Below, in pieces: positions 6,094 through 23,471 of a stretch of 24,913 bases of DNA (position 1 is its first letter; the number at the start of each line of letters is the position of its first letter). The DNA is from a virus. Made by a program: the position numbers and the translations under genes. The notes under the pieces were generated by a model. The model was given only the letters and a program-made list of their open reading frames with translations, was not told the origin of the DNA and did no database searches. Where the stretch lies: positions 1 through 24,913 of IMG/VR virus record IMGVR_UViG_3300005529_000442. The stretch is one strand, 5' to 3'.

Positions 6094-6105
6094 CGGAGCA
6101 CTCCG
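6094..6105. promoter_or_regulatory. Dyad CGGAGCACTCCG giving a GGAG on each strand
   Basis: The 12-bp dyad (5-bp arms, 2-bp centre) lies in the 15 bases between two divergent starts. On the plus strand its GGAG sits 6 bases before the GTG at 6105. On the minus strand its GGAG sits 11 bases before the ATG at 6089. It can therefore serve as the Shine-Dalgarno for both genes. There is no room for promoters between them. Confidence 0.5.
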
Positions 6106-6620
6106 TGAAGCCTATGAAAATTGGGTTGATGCTGCTTCTGCTATGGCCACTACTCGCTGACGCGGCGCCGCTTTGGCGCACGACACATGAGGGGACCATC
6201 GCCTGTTTTGTGGAGGACTCGCCCCATGCCGCGGAGGTAAAGTTGCATGAAGCACGCAAATCGGGCGCAGCCATGCCGCCTGGGTGCGGCCACCTAAAGA
6301 AAGGCTTCCAGTTTTCCCGCTATAACGAAGCCTGCTATCAGGCGCCCTGCGAACCCGGCGTCAACGATATAGACGCCTACGGCGCCGTCCTCAGAACCGA
6401 TGGGGATCGGGACTTCTTCTACGTTTCGGAAGCTGATACCGAACCAGTGCTCGACGCTGATGGCCAGCCAGTTTCTGATCCGTGCGATGCCGCCGGAGCC
6501 GGCGGCGAGTTCGACCGCCTGGAAGCCGCGCCAGACGGCCGGCTCTACCTCAAGCGCTACCTCTTCACGACGCGGTGCAAGGACGGGCGCGTGCAGCAGC
6601 ACGTCAAGCGGTTGAACTGA
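6105..6620 (+). CDS. Exported protein of unknown function, only plus-strand gene (moron-like)
   Basis: The protein has 171 residues from GTG at 6105 (GGAG 6 bases upstream) or 168 from ATG at 6114. Residues 4-22 (MKIGLMLLLLWPLLADAAP) form a clear Sec signal peptide with a small-residue cleavage region. The mature part is acidic and soluble-looking, with seven Cys residues (CFVED, GCGH, ACYQAPC, DPC, RCKDG), which suggests disulfides in the periplasm. I do not recognise a family. It is opposite to all other genes and convergent with the 90-codon gene, with a long GC-rich hairpin immediately after its stop. Slightly lower GC at its 5' end and the inverted position suggest a lysogenic-conversion or superinfection-exclusion type moron; that role is inference. 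Confidence 0.75.
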   Translation: MKPMKIGLMLLLLWPLLADAAPLWRTTHEGTIACFVEDSPHAAEVKLHEARKSGAAMPPGCGHLKKGFQFSRYNEACYQAPCEPGVNDIDAYGAVLRTDGDRDFFYVSEADTEPVLDADGQPVSDPCDAAGAGGEFDRLEAAPDGRLYLKRYLFTTRCKDGRVQQHVKRLN

Positions 6621-6666: not shown

Positions 6667-6939
6667 TCAGCGCATCAGCTCCTCGGCGTTGCGCAGGTTA
6701 CGCGCCATGTCCACCAGGTTTCGCGCCCCATACAGCGCGGCCGAGGTCACAACGTCCTGGCCCTCGATGTGCAGCAGCACCAGGTCAATCATGGCCGAGG
6801 CGTTCTGCAACAGCATGCCGGCGTCCGCGGACAGGGCGGCCGCCGGCGTGTCGGGCGGGATGACGTAGGTCCCGGACATGGAGAAGAAGACCTGGGTCGG
6901 TTCAGGCCCGGGTTGCTGCTCTTGCGCTTGTTTGGCCAT
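6667..6939 (-). CDS. Small C4-RNA-controlled protein (position of ant/icd in P1-type loci)
   Basis: The protein has 90 residues. The ATG at 6939 is chosen because a perfect AGGAGG (6947-6952) lies 7 bases upstream; the frame stays open further upstream only through the structured leader. Residues 1-15 are Gln/Pro-rich and probably flexible. Residues about 33-85 are helical (AAALSADAGMLLQNASAMIDLVLLHIEGQ, YGARNLVDMARNLRNAEEL), with a faint resemblance to the small DUF3077/DUF6124-type proteins of pseudomonads (from memory, unverified). Its leader carries the complementary site of the C4-like RNA at the ribosome-binding site. It would therefore be silenced in the lysogen and made when the antisense RNA fails. 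An antirepressor, cell-division inhibitor (Icd) or other immunity role is inferred from context only. Confidence 0.75.
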   Translation of the reverse strand: MAKQAQEQQPGPEPTQVFFSMSGTYVIPPDTPAAALSADAGMLLQNASAMIDLVLLHIEGQDVVTSAALYGARNLVDMARNLRNAEELMR

Positions 6940-6950
6940 GGATGGCCCTC

Positions 6951-6967
6951 CTACTGGACTTTTGAAC
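6951..6967 (-). promoter_or_regulatory. C4 RNA target site 2, overlapping the Shine-Dalgarno
   Basis: The minus-strand sequence GTTCAAAAGTCCAGTAG is complementary to CTACTGGCGGTTTTGAGC in the C4-like RNA (7014-6997): 7 bp for CCAGTAG/CTACTGG, and 8 bp including one G-U for GTTCAAAA/TTTTGAGC. Its last two bases are the first two of the AGGAGG of the downstream gene. Pairing should block ribosome binding. Confidence 0.75.
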
Positions 6968-6988
6968 CCAATCCCCTTTTGAGAGGGA

Positions 6989-7064
6989 TGCCGGGCGCTC
7001 AAAACCGCCAGTAGACGGCGGGCGTATTCCCCCGAAGGGTCTTGTATTAGCCTCACGCCCGGCA
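6989..7064 (-). ncRNA. c4: C4-like antisense RNA (P1/P7 C4 family)
   Basis: This is a 76-nt element on the minus strand. TGCCGGGCG (7064-7056) pairs perfectly with CGCCCGGCA (6997-6989) as a closing stem. Inside are a CCC-UUCG-GGG hairpin (about 7039-7030) and a CCGCC/GGCGG hairpin (7021-7017 with 7009-7005), whose loop GTCTACT and following single strand TTTTGAG are free. These unpaired parts are complementary to two sites, 7123-7147 and 6951-6967, that flank the element. Known biology: the C4 RNA of P1/P7 is about 77 nt, has this tRNA-like closed shape, is processed by RNase P from the same transcript it regulates, and pairs with flanking a/b sites to silence ant. Size, shape, order and complementarity all agree. 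No covariance search was possible here. Confidence 0.82.
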
Positions 7065-7070
7065 AAAGCA

Positions 7071-7090
7071 TTGTGACCTTACGGCCACAA
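7071..7090 (-). promoter_or_regulatory. GUAA-tetraloop hairpin just upstream of the C4 element
   Basis: Minus-strand TTGTGGCC-GTAA-GGTCACAA forms 8 pairs with one G-U and a GNRA-type loop. It lies between the terminator-like hairpin and the 5' side of the C4 closing stem (6 bases before it), so it may set the 5' processing boundary of the antisense RNA. Confidence 0.5.
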
Positions 7091-7117
7091 AAAATCCGCA
7101 TGTCTATCGGGTGCGGA
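7089..7117 (-). terminator. Intrinsic terminator or attenuator in the C4 leader
   Basis: On the minus strand TCCGCA (7117-7112) pairs with TGCGGA (7100-7095) across an 11-nt loop, followed immediately by six T (7094-7089). It lies after the first C4 target and before the C4 RNA. It may end transcripts of the upstream tail genes or attenuate the C4 transcript itself. Confidence 0.65.
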
Positions 7118-7122
7118 CTCCG

Positions 7123-7147
7123 CTACTGGTGTAAAGGTGTTTTGAGC
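7123..7147 (-). promoter_or_regulatory. C4 RNA target site 1 (leader copy)
   Basis: The minus strand reads GCTCAAAA (7147-7140), a 10-nt spacer, then CCAGTAG (7129-7123). Both halves are perfectly complementary to the C4-like RNA segment 7014-6997 (8 bp and 7 bp). It begins about 6 nt after the expected transcription start, so it may compete with the ribosome-binding-site target or pair in cis. Confidence 0.7.
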
Positions 7148-7159
7148 ACCTGAGGCCGG

Positions 7160-7188
7160 AATCTACGCCGAGCTGTTCACTCCGTCAA
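7160..7188 (-). promoter_or_regulatory. Sigma70-type promoter for the C4 locus
   Basis: The minus strand shows TTGACG (7188-7183), a 17-bp spacer and TAGATT (7165-7160), a near-consensus vegetative promoter in otherwise GC-rich DNA. Start of transcription would be near 7153, just before C4 target 1. The -35 box overlaps the last codons and stop of the small membrane-protein gene that ends at 7177. Confidence 0.72.
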
Positions 7189-7339: not shown

Positions 7340-7510
7340 TTAATCCCCGATCGGGCGCGGATCCATCTCGATCTGCACCATGCCCTCAAGCAGATCCTCG
7401 ATCACAGCCGCCGCTTCATTGAGCAGCTCTGGTGTATTGGAGCTGGCGGCGGCTTTGCGCAGCCGCTCGAGCAGGTCCGCCTGGCGGTTGTCAGTTGTCG
7501 GGTTTCCCAT
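7340..7510 (-). CDS. Small helical protein starting inside the 16-bp palindrome
   Basis: The ORF has 56 residues from the ATG (7510) at the centre of palindrome copy 2. The sequence is mainly one or two amphipathic helices (ADLLERLRKAAASS, LLNEAAAVIEDLLEGMVQIE). This is similar in style to the 'LLeeAAdaIe.L' segments of small phage early-type proteins such as Ea/Ead families (style only). There is no Shine-Dalgarno at normal distance before this ATG, because the palindrome occupies that place. Translation may therefore depend on coupling to gpN (stop at 7536), or the start may differ. The open frame continues upstream into gpN without a better start. Probably real but weakly supported. Confidence 0.5.
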   Translation of the reverse strand: MGNPTTDNRQADLLERLRKAAASSNTPELLNEAAAVIEDLLEGMVQIEMDPRPIGD

Positions 7511-7517
7511 GGGAAAC
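7502..7517. repeat. 16-bp palindrome GTTTCCCATGGGAAAC, copy 2
   Basis: This copy is identical to copies 1 and 4. It lies 18 bases after the stop of the gpN-like gene (7536). Its central ATG is the apparent start of the 56-codon gene below it. The distance from copy 1 is 6380 bp and to copy 3 is 6846 bp. Confidence 0.9.
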
Positions 7518-14003: not shown

Positions 14004-14333
14004 TCAGGCCGGCGCGCCGAGCGCGTTCAGCAGCAGCAGCGCATGCCCGTGGCTATCCGGCTTGGGCTTGCGCACCGTGAAGCTGACGCCGGTGCGGATG
14101 CAGGTGCACTGCTCGCCCTGGCGCGGCAGGCGCGGAAAATCGGAGACGCGGATGCCGACCGCCGGGCCGGTGGTCATCACCGGCACGCCGCCGGCGAGCG
14201 ACTCCTCCTGGTAGGCCTCGTCGTAGACGCCAGCGGCCTGGAACGGCTGCAGGCCGGCCAGGCTCCAGGTGAAGGGCTCGCCGAAAACCCCGAGCAGGGG
14301 CCCGATGACGAGGCTGTTCCAGTCCACGCTCAT
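14004..14333 (-). CDS. Head-tail joining protein (lambda gpFII-like)
   Basis: The protein has 109 residues, close to lambda gpFII (117). The layout fits: N-terminal helix with 'GPLLGVFGEPFTWSL', an unstructured middle, then 'VPVMTTGPAVGIRVSDFPRLPRQGEQCTCIRTGVSFTVRKPKPDSHGHALLLLNAL'. The latter corresponds to the FII beta-barrel pattern (PSL.V...D...LrrGd.v.I....f.V....pD..G...L.L). gpFII caps the portal-gpW complex and docks the tail. In lambda it follows gpE; here the homing endonuclease sits between them. Its ATG overlaps the endonuclease stop (ATGA, 14330-14333). Confidence 0.75.
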   Translation of the reverse strand: MSVDWNSLVIGPLLGVFGEPFTWSLAGLQPFQAAGVYDEAYQEESLAGGVPVMTTGPAVGIRVSDFPRLPRQGEQCTCIRTGVSFTVRKPKPDSHGHALLLLNALGAPA

Positions 14334-14989
14334 GCATCAGCCTCGCCGTTTCCCATGAGAAACGAATCAATACCCCAACGGGCGGCGCGTACCCGCGCGA
14401 TGACTTCCGGCGATCGCTTGCGGCGCATCTTGGCGATCACTTCCGGAGGTCGCGGCTTCCCACGCTTTGAAGCAGCAATGGTTTCGGATATCCGGGCGCG
14501 TTCTTCGGGCGTGCGCCGAGCGTTAGCTGCCGCCATCTTTGCAGCCAGTGCCGATCGCTGTTCCGGCGTTCTCTGCGCATGTACGGCGCGGAGTCGTGAA
14601 CGCGTTTCAGGAGAAACCTCTTTACCACGATGAATGTGCGAGATACGAAGCTTGAAGGATTCGGGCTGCGGGTGGCCGCTACGTCCATCACCGCCTATGG
14701 TGAGGTTATAACCACCACCAAACGTGCCAAACAAAGCTATGGCATCAATTTCAGCACGCGCCGCAGTCGGCCAGTCTGGATATGACGCGAGCTGTTCGAT
14801 GCCGAAGGCATCCGCACCATGCTTGCGAATCGCAGCACCGAGTAAGGTCTTGCACCGTAGGCTGGAACGTCTAGAGTTTCGGATATGTTCACCCCACCGA
14901 ACTCGGAGGGTCTTTGAGGTGATGCCTACATAGCACCTGCCATTTGCATGGCAGGTGACTAGGTAAAGCAAGACCTCACACGGGGACAT
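14330..14989 (-). CDS. GIY-YIG homing endonuclease with NUMOD3 repeats
   Basis: The protein has 219 residues from ATG at 14989, where the GIY-YIG module begins; the frame upstream is only the capsid gene out of frame. Domain order: GIY-YIG catalytic module at about 6-100 with 'LLYLVT' (7-12), 'CYVGITSK' (19-26), Arg31, His35 and the likely metal-binding Glu80, ending 'GGYNLTIGGDG'. Residues about 110-200 then hold three NUMOD3-type DNA-binding repeats (SPETRSRLR, TPEQRSALAAK, TPEERARIS). Free-standing members cut unoccupied alleles in rival phages and spread by repair. It separates the capsid and head-tail joiner genes. GC near its 5' end is about 52% over 100 bases, clearly below its neighbours, which suggests recent arrival. 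The last codons contain palindrome copy 3. Confidence 0.92.
   Translation of the reverse strand: MSPCEVLLYLVTCHANGRCYVGITSKTLRVRWGEHIRNSRRSSLRCKTLLGAAIRKHGADAFGIEQLASYPDWPTAARAEIDAIALFGTFGGGYNLTIGGDGRSGHPQPESFKLRISHIHRGKEVSPETRSRLRAVHAQRTPEQRSALAAKMAAANARRTPEERARISETIAASKRGKPRPPEVIAKMRRKRSPEVIARVRAARWGIDSFLMGNGEADA
14348..14363. repeat. 16-bp palindrome, copy 3 with one mismatch
   Basis: Plus-strand GTTTCCCATGAGAAAC differs from the other three copies at one base. It lies within the last codons of the endonuclease gene, 15 bases before the head-tail joiner start. Read on the minus strand its ATG is in frame with the endonuclease and would give MGNGEADA, ending on the ATGA overlap. Confidence 0.8.
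14934..14957 (-). promoter_or_regulatory. 10-bp hairpin with GCAA tetraloop in the endonuclease 5' coding region
   Basis: On the minus strand CACCTGCCAT pairs perfectly with ATGGCAGGTG around a GCAA (GNRA) loop, 32-56 nt into the endonuclease mRNA. Hairpins near the start of phage homing-endonuclease genes are known to limit their expression (for example in T4). The same role here is inference. Confidence 0.55.
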
Positions 14990-18053: not shown

Positions 18054-18914
18054 TTATCCCAGCTCCTGGAGCAGGGCCTGAAATGCGGCGTCCGGCGCCA
18101 TAACGGCGTCGGCGAAGCCGAGGTCGACGCCGGCGGCGCCGAGGTAAGTGGCGGCCTCGGTGGCACGCACGCGCGAGGCCTTGAGGCCGCGGTTGCGCGC
18201 GACCGTGTCGACGAACAGCTCGCCCATGGTGTCGACGTCGGCCTGGAAGCGGGCGAGCGCCTCCTTGCTCAGCGGGATGACCTGCTGGCCGTCGGCCTTG
18301 CGCTTGCCGTACTGGATCAGCGTGACGTTGATGCCGCTCTCGCTCAGCGCCTGGCTGAAGTCGACGTGCATGCAGATGACGCCGACGCTGCCGGTGCCGC
18401 CGGTGCGCGGCACGATGATGCGGTCGGTGGCGCTGGCCAGGGCATAGGCGGCGGAATAGGCGTATTCGCTCAGCACCGACCAGATCGGCTTCTCGCCGCG
18501 CACCTGGTAGACCGCGTCGACTAGGTCGAAGCAGCCCGCCACCTCGCCGCCGGGCGATTCGATGTCCAGGACGATGGCGCGCACCGCCTCGTCCTCGAGC
18601 GCCATCGAGAGGCAGGCGCGGATCCCGTCGTAGCCGGTCATGCCGCTGTATGGCCGCATGGTGCCGAGCTTCTGCACCAGGGTGCCCGTGACCGGGATGA
18701 TCGCCACGCCTTCCACCACCTGGTACGGCCGGCTCTCGGCCGGCTCGTCCTCCAGGCCGAAGCTCTCGATCGCGAGCGTTTCGCCGTTGGCGTTGAACAG
18801 GTGCGCGATGCCGAAACGGTCGGCCAGCGCGGCCATGACCAGCTCCGCCTTGCGCGGCGTGATCGCCAGCGGCACGTTGAACAGGCGCTGGGCGAGGTGG
18901 GGCAGGTTGCGCAT
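18054..18914 (-). CDS. S49-family prohead protease (lambda gpC-like)
   Basis: The protein has 286 residues. The S49/SppA-like fold is clear: 'VEGVAIIPVTGTLV' (68-80), 'GYDGIRACLSMALEDEAVRAIVLDIESPGGEVAG' (94-127) with the conserved SPGG oxyanion motif, nucleophile Ser154 in 'YAYSAAYALAS', then 'GTGSVGVICMHVDFSQAL' and the general base Lys206 in 'KRKADG'. Such proteins cleave scaffold, portal and capsid N-termini during prohead maturation. The N-terminal 60 residues (NLPHLAQRLFNVPLAITPRKAELVMAAL) are the usual phage extension. Unlike lambda C, no scaffold is fused at the C-terminus. The ATG overlaps the M50 protease stop (TGATG at 18914), so the two proteases are translationally coupled. Confidence 0.92.
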   Translation of the reverse strand: MRNLPHLAQRLFNVPLAITPRKAELVMAALADRFGIAHLFNANGETLAIESFGLEDEPAESRPYQVVEGVAIIPVTGTLVQKLGTMRPYSGMTGYDGIRACLSMALEDEAVRAIVLDIESPGGEVAGCFDLVDAVYQVRGEKPIWSVLSEYAYSAAYALASATDRIIVPRTGGTGSVGVICMHVDFSQALSESGINVTLIQYGKRKADGQQVIPLSKEALARFQADVDTMGELFVDTVARNRGLKASRVRATEAATYLGAAGVDLGFADAVMAPDAAFQALLQELG

Positions 18915-19417
18915 CAGCGCACCAGCTCGGCGGCCGGCCGGCCGAGCAGCCAGCGGGCGATGTGCGCACCGTCGAACGGCGCGAACGGCAGCAGGTTGAT
19001 GACGGCCATCGAGGCGTTGACGATCACGCCGGCGTGGCCCATCGCCTGCAGGCCGGGAGCGACGTCCATCCGGCTCAGGGCATACCAGGCCAGGCTCATC
19101 GCGAGGTTGGCGGCCGGGCCGGCGGCGTGGACCAGCGCCAGGTCGCGCCGCGGGCGACGCAGCAGGCGGCTGTTGATCGGCAGCGGCCGGCCCCAGCCCA
19201 GGACCAGACCGGTGCCGGTGAGGATCAGCAGCAGCGGCAGCACCAGGGTGCCGGCCGGGCTGACGTGGCGCAGGGGGTTGAGGCTGAGGCGGCCGAGCGC
19301 CCGCGCGGTGCCGTCGCCCAGGGCCAGCGCGGCGTAGCCGTGGGCCACCTCGTGCAGGGTCAGGGCCAGCAGCACCGGCAGTAGCCAGACCGCCAGGGTG
19401 ATCAGCGTTGCGTTCAC
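18914..19417 (-). CDS. M50 (site-2 protease-like) intramembrane metalloprotease
   Basis: The protein has 167 residues, starting with GTG at 19417 that overlaps the portal stop (GTGA). It has all landmarks of the small bacterial site-2 protease group (YwhC-like): the zinc motif HEVAH (His22, Glu23, His26) inside a first hydrophobic helix; 'GRLSLNPLRHVSPAGTLVLPLLLIL' (42-66); 'GWGRPLPINSRLLRRPRRDLALVHAAGPAANLAMSLA' (74-110); and 'NLLPFAPFDGAHI' (141-153) with the third zinc ligand Asp149. Three to four membrane spans are expected. It should cut substrates within the membrane. The family is common in bacterial chromosomes but is not part of any phage head set I know. Overlaps on both sides show it is an established member of this operon, not a loose insertion. 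It is slightly shorter at the C-terminus than typical members (about 200-220). Confidence 0.9.
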   Translation of the reverse strand: MNATLITLAVWLLPVLLALTLHEVAHGYAALALGDGTARALGRLSLNPLRHVSPAGTLVLPLLLILTGTGLVLGWGRPLPINSRLLRRPRRDLALVHAAGPAANLAMSLAWYALSRMDVAPGLQAMGHAGVIVNASMAVINLLPFAPFDGAHIARWLLGRPAAELVR

Positions 19418-21359: not shown

Positions 21360-23471
21360 CTAGGCGAGACGGCTGGCCAGCGAGCGCCGCTCGGGCGCTC
21401 CCGCCGGCGCCGCCCCGGGTTTCCCATGGGAAACGGGCGGCGTCGGCGGTGCAGTGGCGGTCGCTGGGTTGTCGGGTGAGGCCGGCGCCTGGGCGTCGAC
21501 CATGGTGTTGTTGTCCCAGGGCGCGGCCCAGGGAAAGGGCTGTTCCCAGTTGATGCGCGAAAGGCCGTGCAGGTGCGCGGCGACGTGCGTCAGGACCATC
21601 AGGTCCAGCGCTTCGTTGCGCGCGTTCGCGGACTTCTTTTCCCAGCGTCCGTCGGCGCGGCGGTGCTCCGCGGCGAGCTGCTCGAAAAACGGGTGCGGTG
21701 CTTCCTTGGCGCGCAGGCCGCGCGGGAAGTGCACGTAGCCCGGGCCGGGCTCCGCCACCTTGAGCTGGGCGACGAGCCCGTCCTTGAACAAGTTCGGGTT
21801 GAACGAGGCCAGCGGCACCTGGCCGCGGGCGATCTTGCCGGCCTTGCGCTGCGTGTCCGGGTAGACGACGACCAGGCGCTGGGCGTTGACGGCCTTGGCG
21901 CCCTTGGACGGCAACAGCGACCACGCCTCGCGGCCGTTGATGAGGCCATAGGAGCGCAGCTTGCGCCGGCGGTGCCAGCGGATGAAGGAGCCGTAGGCCT
22001 GGTCGGTGACGCCGGGCACGCCCTGCGAGTCGAAGATCGCGCCGCGCGGCCGCATATGCCGGCCGCTGCCATCGGCCAGTGGCCAGCTCTTGCTCAGCAC
22101 CTGGTCGAGCAGCTGGTCCCAGTCCTCGGGTGAGGTGTCGACCGAGGCCGGCAGCTTGCCGTGCTCGATGATCCAGCTCTCGCCCTTAACGCCCCAGCCG
22201 CGCACGAGCCACTCGAAGTGCGCCGCCTGGATGTCTGCCGCGACGGTGATGAAGCGCACGCCGTCCGGCACGACACCACGCGTGAGCGACGACTCGGCGC
22301 GCTCGGCCAGGACGTTGGCGTCGACCGTGCCCTCGGCCTTGAGCGTGAGGCGCGGGTAGCCCCACTGCTTGGCCATGACCTGGTGGAAGGTCTTGATGGC
22401 GTCATCGCCGCCGTTTTCGGCGTCGCGCTCGGCCTTGGCGCGGGCGCGCGCCAGGGCGCCGATGCCGCCGTCGACGAATAGGCTCATCGTGCCGACGATC
22501 CAGAAGCCGGCAATGCGGTGTGGCTGCAGCTCGCCGGTGACGACGCCGTCCTCGCTGATCTCCTGGCCGAGGCCGACGTAGCGGCCGTAGCGCAGCATCT
22601 CGCGTCGGTAGCTGTCCTCGATGTGGCAGCCGGCGGTCGGGCAGATCAGGCGCGCTTCGGCCTGCACCTCGTCGAGCGGGGCGTTGGCCGGATACCAGAG
22701 GCCCATGTGCCGCGGCGCGATCGGGATCGGGCTCGACCAGGCGCCGCAAAGCGGGCAGGGCCAGTACCACATGCGCCGGTCGCTGTCGCGGTACCAGGCG
22801 AGGATGCCCTCGGTCCACTTCTCCGGGTCCAGGCCGTAGGCCAGGTCCGGGTGGCTCATGCCCAGGATCTTGCCGTGGCGCCCGAAGTTGGTGATGCGGA
22901 CGTCGAACTGCGCCTTCACGTCTCCGAGCGAGCGCAGGTAGGCGTCGATCTCGTCGGCGACGATGCGCGGCGCCGTCTTGCTGATCAGGTTCGCCTGGGT
23001 CGCCGACAGGAACTCGGCGCGCATGCCGGCGAAGCGCTTGAACTTCATGCTCCGGTCTTCGGGCCGCGAGCCGAGGCGGCCGGAGAGCTGCGGGTGCAGC
23101 TCGATCATCGGGTTGATCTGCGCCTTGACGTAGGCGTCGCGCAGATCGTCCGTCGGCATGTACCACAGCATGTCGCCCGGATCCGTGGCCACCGACTTCA
23201 GCAGCCAGTTCTCGGCGATGCTGGTCTTGCCGCTGCGGCCAGGGCCCACCACGGCCACCGCCTGGTGCTCCAGGGACGTGAGGCAGTCCATCGGCTCGAC
23301 CAGGAACGGCGCGAGCTCGTGGTTCCACGGGCCGGAGTAGGCACCGGCGGGATTCGACAGCAGGCGCTTGCGGGCCGCGTACTGCGACACCGTCTCGCGC
23401 GCGCGCGGCCGGAGGATGTCCAGCACGTCGCGGAACACCGCGCGGGCGGAGGCGTAGGGTGCGTCGAGCAT
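21360..23471 (-). CDS. Terminase large subunit (lambda GpA family)
   Basis: The protein has 703 residues (lambda GpA 641). The ATPase has Walker A 'GPGRSGKTS' (76-84) and Walker B-type 'RIVADEIDAYL' with Asp173/Glu174. A zinc-binding-like 'CPLC' and 'CPTAGC' insert follows, as in many GpA proteins, then the nuclease half with 'VRFITVAADIQAAHFEWLVRGWG' (acidic active site), 'AIFDSQGVPGVTDQAYGSF', and 'NEALDLMVLTHVAAHLHGL' near the end. It packages DNA and, in this family, cuts cos ends. Residues from about 655 are an Ala/Pro-rich disordered tail. Palindrome copy 4 falls in this tail and encodes VSHGKP. Start at 23471 is 4 bases after the small subunit stop. Confidence 0.95.
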   Translation of the reverse strand: MLDAPYASARAVFRDVLDILRPRARETVSQYAARKRLLSNPAGAYSGPWNHELAPFLVEPMDCLTSLEHQAVAVVGPGRSGKTSIAENWLLKSVATDPGDMLWYMPTDDLRDAYVKAQINPMIELHPQLSGRLGSRPEDRSMKFKRFAGMRAEFLSATQANLISKTAPRIVADEIDAYLRSLGDVKAQFDVRITNFGRHGKILGMSHPDLAYGLDPEKWTEGILAWYRDSDRRMWYWPCPLCGAWSSPIPIAPRHMGLWYPANAPLDEVQAEARLICPTAGCHIEDSYRREMLRYGRYVGLGQEISEDGVVTGELQPHRIAGFWIVGTMSLFVDGGIGALARARAKAERDAENGGDDAIKTFHQVMAKQWGYPRLTLKAEGTVDANVLAERAESSLTRGVVPDGVRFITVAADIQAAHFEWLVRGWGVKGESWIIEHGKLPASVDTSPEDWDQLLDQVLSKSWPLADGSGRHMRPRGAIFDSQGVPGVTDQAYGSFIRWHRRRKLRSYGLINGREAWSLLPSKGAKAVNAQRLVVVYPDTQRKAGKIARGQVPLASFNPNLFKDGLVAQLKVAEPGPGYVHFPRGLRAKEAPHPFFEQLAAEHRRADGRWEKKSANARNEALDLMVLTHVAAHLHGLSRINWEQPFPWAAPWDNNTMVDAQAPASPDNPATATAPPTPPVSHGKPGAAPAGAPERRSLASRLA
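21419..21434. repeat. 16-bp palindrome GTTTCCCATGGGAAAC, copy 4
   Basis: This is an exact copy within the terminase large subunit 3' coding region, about 60-75 bases before the stop, in the part encoding a low-complexity tail. It is 7071 bp from copy 3. Being read in a different frame from the copy in the endonuclease gene, it is conserved as DNA, not as protein. Confidence 0.9.

Follow-up and report, generated by a model that had tools for sequence, protein, structure and literature searches.

An sRNA-Xcc1-type RNA in a putative C4-like antisense switch controlling an orphan gene among viral tail genes

The 24,913-nt stretch of viral DNA analysed here (positions 1 to 24,913 of IMG/VR record IMGVR_UViG_3300005529_000442; hereafter the window) carries a short minus-strand cassette among its tail genes (7188–6667), which a preliminary description took for a complete C4-type antisense RNA immunity locus. 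This raises the questions of which RNA the cassette encodes, what that RNA would regulate, and what such a locus does in a tail operon. The elements named in that description (promoter, sites, terminator, RNA and a 90-codon gene) are all confirmed in the sequence and the predicted fold, and lie where they had been placed (Table 1).

Table 1. Features of the cassette, listed in the direction of transcription.
Feature	Position	Strand	Basis or remark
Promoter-like TTGACG–17 bp–TAGATT	7160..7188	-	consensus scan 9/12; weak evidence alone
Leader hairpin AGGTG-CTCAAAA-CACCT presenting a1	7135..7151	-	sequence and fold
a1 GCTCAAAA	7147-7140	-	complementary to a'
b1 CCAGTAG, followed by CGG	7123..7129	-	complementary to b'
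Leader terminator TCCGCA..TGCGGA + TTTTTT, loop motif CCCGATAG	7089..7117	-	motif common in sRNA-Xcc1-type loci
GUAA-capped hairpin TTGTGGCC-GTAA-GGTCACAA	7071..7090	-	sequence
76-nt sRNA-Xcc1-type (C4-like) antisense RNA with perfect 9-bp P1 stem	6989..7064	-	RF02221 match, fold, covariation
b' CTACTGG, P3 loop, specificity element	7008..7014	-	own-target complementarity
a' TTTTGAGC, between P3 and the 3' strand of P1	6997..7004	-	own-target complementarity
Extra a-site CTCAAAA, small hairpin directly 3' of the RNA	6977..6983	-	sequence; CCCTCTCAAAAGGGG also in E. coli homologues
Target a2 GTTCAAAA	6967-6960	-	pairs with a' through one G-U
Target b2 CCAGTAG	6957-6951	-	overlaps Shine-Dalgarno AGGAGG 6952-6947
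90-codon gene P0001, putative regulated gene	6667..6939	-	ATG at 6939; codon signal

The RNA consists of the P1 stem, a P2 helix with the core AAUACAA.ACCC..GGGGAAU, a P3 helix with b' in its loop, and a single-stranded a' (predicted fold, z -2.18). It matches the full 87-position covariance model of the sRNA-Xcc1 family (RF02221) at 7064–6981 with 75.3 bits (E 2.5e-12; curated cut-off 53 bits). Both b' and a' are complementary to two pairs of sites, a1/b1 in the leader and a2/b2 before the gene. The minus strand of the whole window has just two copies of CCAGTAG, at 6951 and 7123, and two of CTCAAAA, at 6977 and 7140; the CTCAAAA at 6977 is a third a-site that had been overlooked. Sites as good as the promoter are expected 0.5 times in shuffles. 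For this single locus the duplex energies are equalled by 11 and 18 of 1000 mononucleotide shuffles, a modest level of ~1–2%; the strong evidence for pairing beyond chance is comparative, and comes from 104 loci and from compensatory changes in homologues. The GUAA hairpin, which had been counted as part of the locus, is present but is not conserved in the alignment of the nearest homologues, and it is therefore probably incidental and not essential.

Two queries, the core ATACAANACCC..GGGGAAT and the leader hairpin, were used to collect viral loci; the closing stem was located in each locus, and 104 loci with distinct P3 loop segments were kept, a few of which may be chance core matches. For every loop, complementarity to the flanking sequences of its own locus, downstream and upstream, was compared with complementarity to the flanks of the other loci, using 2000 permutations. 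Own-target complementarity exceeds the permuted values for both b' (z 21.8 downstream, 19.7 upstream) and a' (z 13.0 downstream, 17.7 upstream) across the 104 loci; these loci share ancestry, so that z is not a strict probability, and permuting relatives favours foreign pairing, not own pairing. In 73 of 84 loci the b2 site abuts a Shine-Dalgarno-like sequence, against an expectation of 19% from random 15-mers; the start codon usually lies 7–11 nt past the downstream site, and CGG follows b1 in 61 of 88 loci. In 60 of the 104 loci the leader terminates with a hairpin whose loop is CCCG[A/T][T/C/A]AG, or a close variant, and a T-run (0.24% when shuffled), and this terminator takes the position that isrK has in true C4 loci. 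Among 18 relatives, 12 of the 22 consensus stem pairs show two-sided changes. As in C4-type loci, a' and b' are complementary to leader and ribosome-binding sites and change together with them between relatives. The same exact b'/a' specificity was found nowhere else in viral contigs, and no pattern close to the window RNA was found in genome contigs.

The closest homologues of the leader and RNA lie in E. coli prophages, where identity reaches 79% over 97% of the query, and a match is present in 239 of 5,426 genomes. Two of these prophage loci, L335 and L336, were fetched (74–79% identical over 92–97% of the query), and each has an ORF6N-domain gene directly downstream. In the alignment the b' CTACTGG of the window is matched by CCAGTAG at b1 and b2, the CTATCGC of L335 by GCGATAG at both sites, and the CTACTTG of L336 by CAAGTAG at both, such that the two complementary sites are kept in relatives with compensating changes; GGTGCTCAAAACACC in the leader a1 is also kept in the E. 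coli homologues. At a plasmid locus (L126) a' (TTACGAGC) and a1 (GCTCGTAA) have changed together; its b2 match is imperfect, the second site not being kept in every locus. The 104-locus pairing and the compensation in homologues together support the proposed C4-type architecture, with two target sites of which the second covers the ribosome-binding site.

The position of the cassette is between the gpN and baseplate hub genes, with 1.4 kb intervening in the window, while these two genes are adjacent (within 150 bp) in 66 of 74 tail relatives, in support of the insertion into the tail operon that had been claimed. The nearest relative (L251; hub 57% identical) shares the small ORF after gpN (73%) and a convergent secreted protein (35%), and at the cassette position it carries a different 108-aa ORF with no RNA match; by this comparison the cassette appears to be an exchangeable insert in a variable spot. 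An sRNA-Xcc1 RNA is annotated among the tail genes of Vibrio phage VPBES, so the tail location is unusual, not unique. The locus had also been described as far from any visible immunity region, and only late (head and tail) genes are indeed recognised among the window genes examined, but this carries little weight as the 24.9-kb virus record is possibly a fragment.

Several other features of the window deserve mention. The convergent gene at 6105–6620 (+), which runs against the tail operon, encodes a 171-aa signal-peptide-like protein. L251 has a relative of it at the same place, Pfam and PADLOC give no match, and L330, L287 and L306 carry other secreted-looking ORFs on that opposite strand. 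Among the head genes, 18914–19417 (-) has a Peptidase M50 (site-2 protease-like) match (E 1e-9), which is unusual for a phage, and an ORF at 14330–14923 (-) contains a GIY-YIG-like stretch (LYLVTCHANGRCYVGITS) and is possibly a homing endonuclease, with no Pfam match at 0.01. A 14-bp palindrome, TTTCCCATGGGAAA, is present at 1123–1136, 7503–7516, 14349–14362 (one mismatch) and 21420–21433, the three exact copies being GTTTCCCATGGGAAAC. Intervals of 6.4, 6.8 and 7.1 kb separate the copies, which are spread over the late region and lie close to the start or end of a gene; shuffles expect none, and L251 has two copies of TCCCATGGGA; the palindrome is possibly an operator or an anchoring site.

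The 90-codon gene has a clear coding signal (frame 0 at +0.41 bits/codon, the other same-strand frames at about -1.2; GC3 0.87). Its product, P0001, has no relatives in Pfam, PHROG, NCBIfam or PADLOC, nor in translated viral, genome, phage and plasmid collections. DUF3077 (PF11275) was considered for P0001 and ruled out, as the Pfam profile gives no match at E<=10. The AF2 model (single-sequence; pLDDT 78.6) is a beta-hairpin with two helices, and a fold search with it gives no match in PDB or BFVD at E<=0.001. P0001 contains no antirepressor domain, in line with the earlier view of a small protein unlike P1 Ant; none is recognised downstream of the gene, and the next gene is convergent. At the other sRNA-Xcc1-type loci most downstream genes are of antirepressor types as judged by Pfam, the 91 downstream proteins including KilA-N (19), Rha (17), P22_AR_C (14), Bro-N (10), ORF6N (10) and AntA (9) domains, some co-occurring, and a minority are small orphan proteins of ~70–140 aa. 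In L060, L070, L192, L074 and an Azospirillum plasmid a small ORF precedes the antirepressor-type gene, an order that recalls Icd-Ant of P1; unlike these, the window gene is a stand-alone case.

Two readings of the protein's role keep the antisense mechanism and concern the role alone. The 90-aa protein may be an antirepressor or a helper, the cassette then still being an immunity locus despite its tail position; the ORF6N genes behind the nearest E. coli homologues of leader and RNA and the small ORFs ahead of antirepressor-type genes make this a possible, if tentative, reading, whereas the missing domain, the lack of a recognised antirepressor downstream and the convergent neighbour weigh against it. 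A toxin or cell-inhibiting moron, to which the RNA would be a type-I-like antitoxin, is rather doubtful: P0001 stands alone with no antirepressor detected after its gene, cell division is blocked by P1 Icd, whose gene lies in the immI region that C4 controls (PMC8201110), and sRNA-Xcc1 is located upstream of symE in an integron cassette of Xanthomonas integrons (13 species; PMC12444791), but P0001 is similar to no toxin and to no known protein.

Some of the other loci merit separate description. In an Stx-converting phage (L124, 369–600) an sRNA-Xcc1-type RNA lies ahead of ant, with leader and ribosome-binding sites that match it, and it is possible from this pairing that the RNA regulates ant in addition to the 24B_1 RNA that the literature proposes. 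A tie between the 20-nt 24B_1 RNA of phi24B and the sRNA-Xcc1 family was dropped, 24B_1 being encoded elsewhere (lom-vb_24B_43). On a Xanthomonas plasmid (L127, 2400–3900) ISXfu2 lies in the b' loop and splits an sRNA-Xcc1-type RNA upstream of symE; a short ORF preceded by TAGGAGG overlaps the symE start with its end. Adjoining isrK and C4 RNAs are found in the same phages as sRNA-Xcc1-type loci (L028 2422–2605 and 3565–3753; L065 843–1028), and one prophage can therefore hold both C4-like classes.

Sequence and structure, the specificity of pairing, the layout and the site of insertion are shown, and the locus is probably a self-contained C4-like antisense switch carried as cargo (a moron cassette) within the tail module. 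We infer that a single promoter (~7188–7160) would express a leader containing a1/b1 that ends largely at the terminator (7117–7089), and that read-through transcripts would carry both the sRNA-Xcc1-type RNA and the 90-codon mRNA. By comparison with P1/P7, the RNA would be cut out at the P1 stem to ~76 nt with RNase P acting at the 5' end; RNase P recognition appears less typical here because the 3' end after P1 is A-UCCC, instead of the C-rich, RCC-like end of most relatives. Pairing of b' and a' with b2/a2 over the Shine-Dalgarno sequence would leave the 90-codon gene untranslated in the lysogen, and both processing and occlusion of the ribosome-binding site have been described for C4 RNA (PMC5320573). 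The same RNA would also pair with a1/b1, so that the short terminated leader may act as a decoy, titrating the RNA away and thereby switching the gene on. This role is suggested by analogy with Gifsy-1, where the short terminated IsrK acts in trans and the read-through mRNA becomes translatable (PMC4825925); the orf45 region of Gifsy-1 presumably corresponds to the C4 RNA. Alternatively, pairing of the RNA with a1/b1 could help transcription to terminate. A newly entering copy would be silenced by an element of the same b' and would escape one whose b' differs. That the cassette is instead a decayed relic of an immunity cassette is improbable; the weak promoter, the orphan downstream gene and the missing ordinary antirepressor would fit decay, but the stems, both target sites, the terminator, a perfect Shine-Dalgarno sequence and the coding frame are all intact.

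The C4-type identity proposed in the preliminary description holds for the mechanism and fails for family membership. A covariance search of the locus with the Rfam C4 model (RF01695; cut-off 45 bits), the check suggested there, gives no match even at E<=10, nor do the leader families c4-a1b1 (RF03163) and isrK (RF01394), and membership of all three is ruled out at the level of the models, with RF02221 matching instead; a functional equivalent of the C4 leader is present as a1/b1 with a terminator. A true P1/P7 C4 RNA is thus very unlikely: the order a1b1-terminator-RNA-a2b2/RBS-gene and the size are similar, and isrK/C4 pairs do share phages with sRNA-Xcc1 RNAs, but none of the three models matches and the conserved core differs. 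There is good comparative support for reading the locus as a C4-like antisense switch built on an sRNA-Xcc1 RNA, to be filed under sRNA-Xcc1 and not under C4.

In Xanthomonas, sRNA-Xcc1 is an 88-nt RNA by Northern and RACE (PMC2996969). It is cited, through the title of Chen 2011, as an integron-encoded trans-acting virulence sRNA (PMC12444791, PMC12189769) and is referred to as under HrpG/HrpX control (PMC12444791); Xylella homologues are likewise discussed as trans-acting (PMC12189769). In the literature covered, outside which the original 2011 paper falls, no paper was found that ties sRNA-Xcc1 to C4-type regulation. A trans-acting sRNA on host genes, as the family label and the many trans targets predicted in these papers would have it, is highly improbable at this locus, as the loops are highly variable and track their own leader and ribosome-binding sites, where a conserved trans role predicts otherwise.

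The pairing statistics indicate instead that the phage and prophage members of sRNA-Xcc1 act in cis, as antisense RNAs that belong to mobile elements and target the gene directly after them. Such a cis role gives sRNA-Xcc1 a directly testable function and would explain its position upstream of symE and of antirepressors. It also provides a reading rule for phage immunity specificity, in which b' is the complement of a short word found twice, once in the leader just before CGG and once at the gene, where it leads into the Shine-Dalgarno sequence. New here are the tie between sRNA-Xcc1 and C4, the a1b1-terminator leader of the sRNA-Xcc1 class, and the use of such a switch outside immunity regions, for an orphan cargo gene within a tail operon. 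Whether all of sRNA-Xcc1 forms a second C4-like class of antisense immunity RNAs in phages, with no detectable sequence relation to C4 and with fast-diverging loop specificities, which phages have uncoupled from antirepressors and reuse as a portable cargo lock (on an orphan tail-operon gene here and on symE in Xanthomonas integrons), is evenly balanced.

The locus can be set against four known systems. The window RNA is like sRNA-Xcc1 (RF02221, a member of no Rfam clan) over the full covariance model, but sRNA-Xcc1 has been described as trans-acting, integron-borne and from Xanthomonas, whereas the window RNA is a predicted cis antisense RNA in a tail module, and the sampled family members show locus-specific cis targets as predicted from pairing. 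With C4 of P1/P7 (RF01695, in clan CL00128 with c4-a1b1) it shares a three-helix RNA of ~77 nt with a'/b' loops; C4 is cut from the transcript of its own operon and its b' occludes the ribosome-binding site, for which the window would have counterparts, and it differs in covariance model, in the core, in a target that is not Ant, and in lying among tail genes. IsrK (RF01394) of Salmonella Gifsy-1 is similarly a short terminated leader ahead of a C4-type RNA, with read-through making the mRNA and an antirepressor downstream (PMC4825925), but the window leader is unrelated to it in sequence and may act as a decoy only by analogy. The E. coli prophage loci L335 and L336 have different b' specificities with matching sites and precede ORF6N genes near integration or recombination genes, whereas the window carries an orphan gene in a tail operon.
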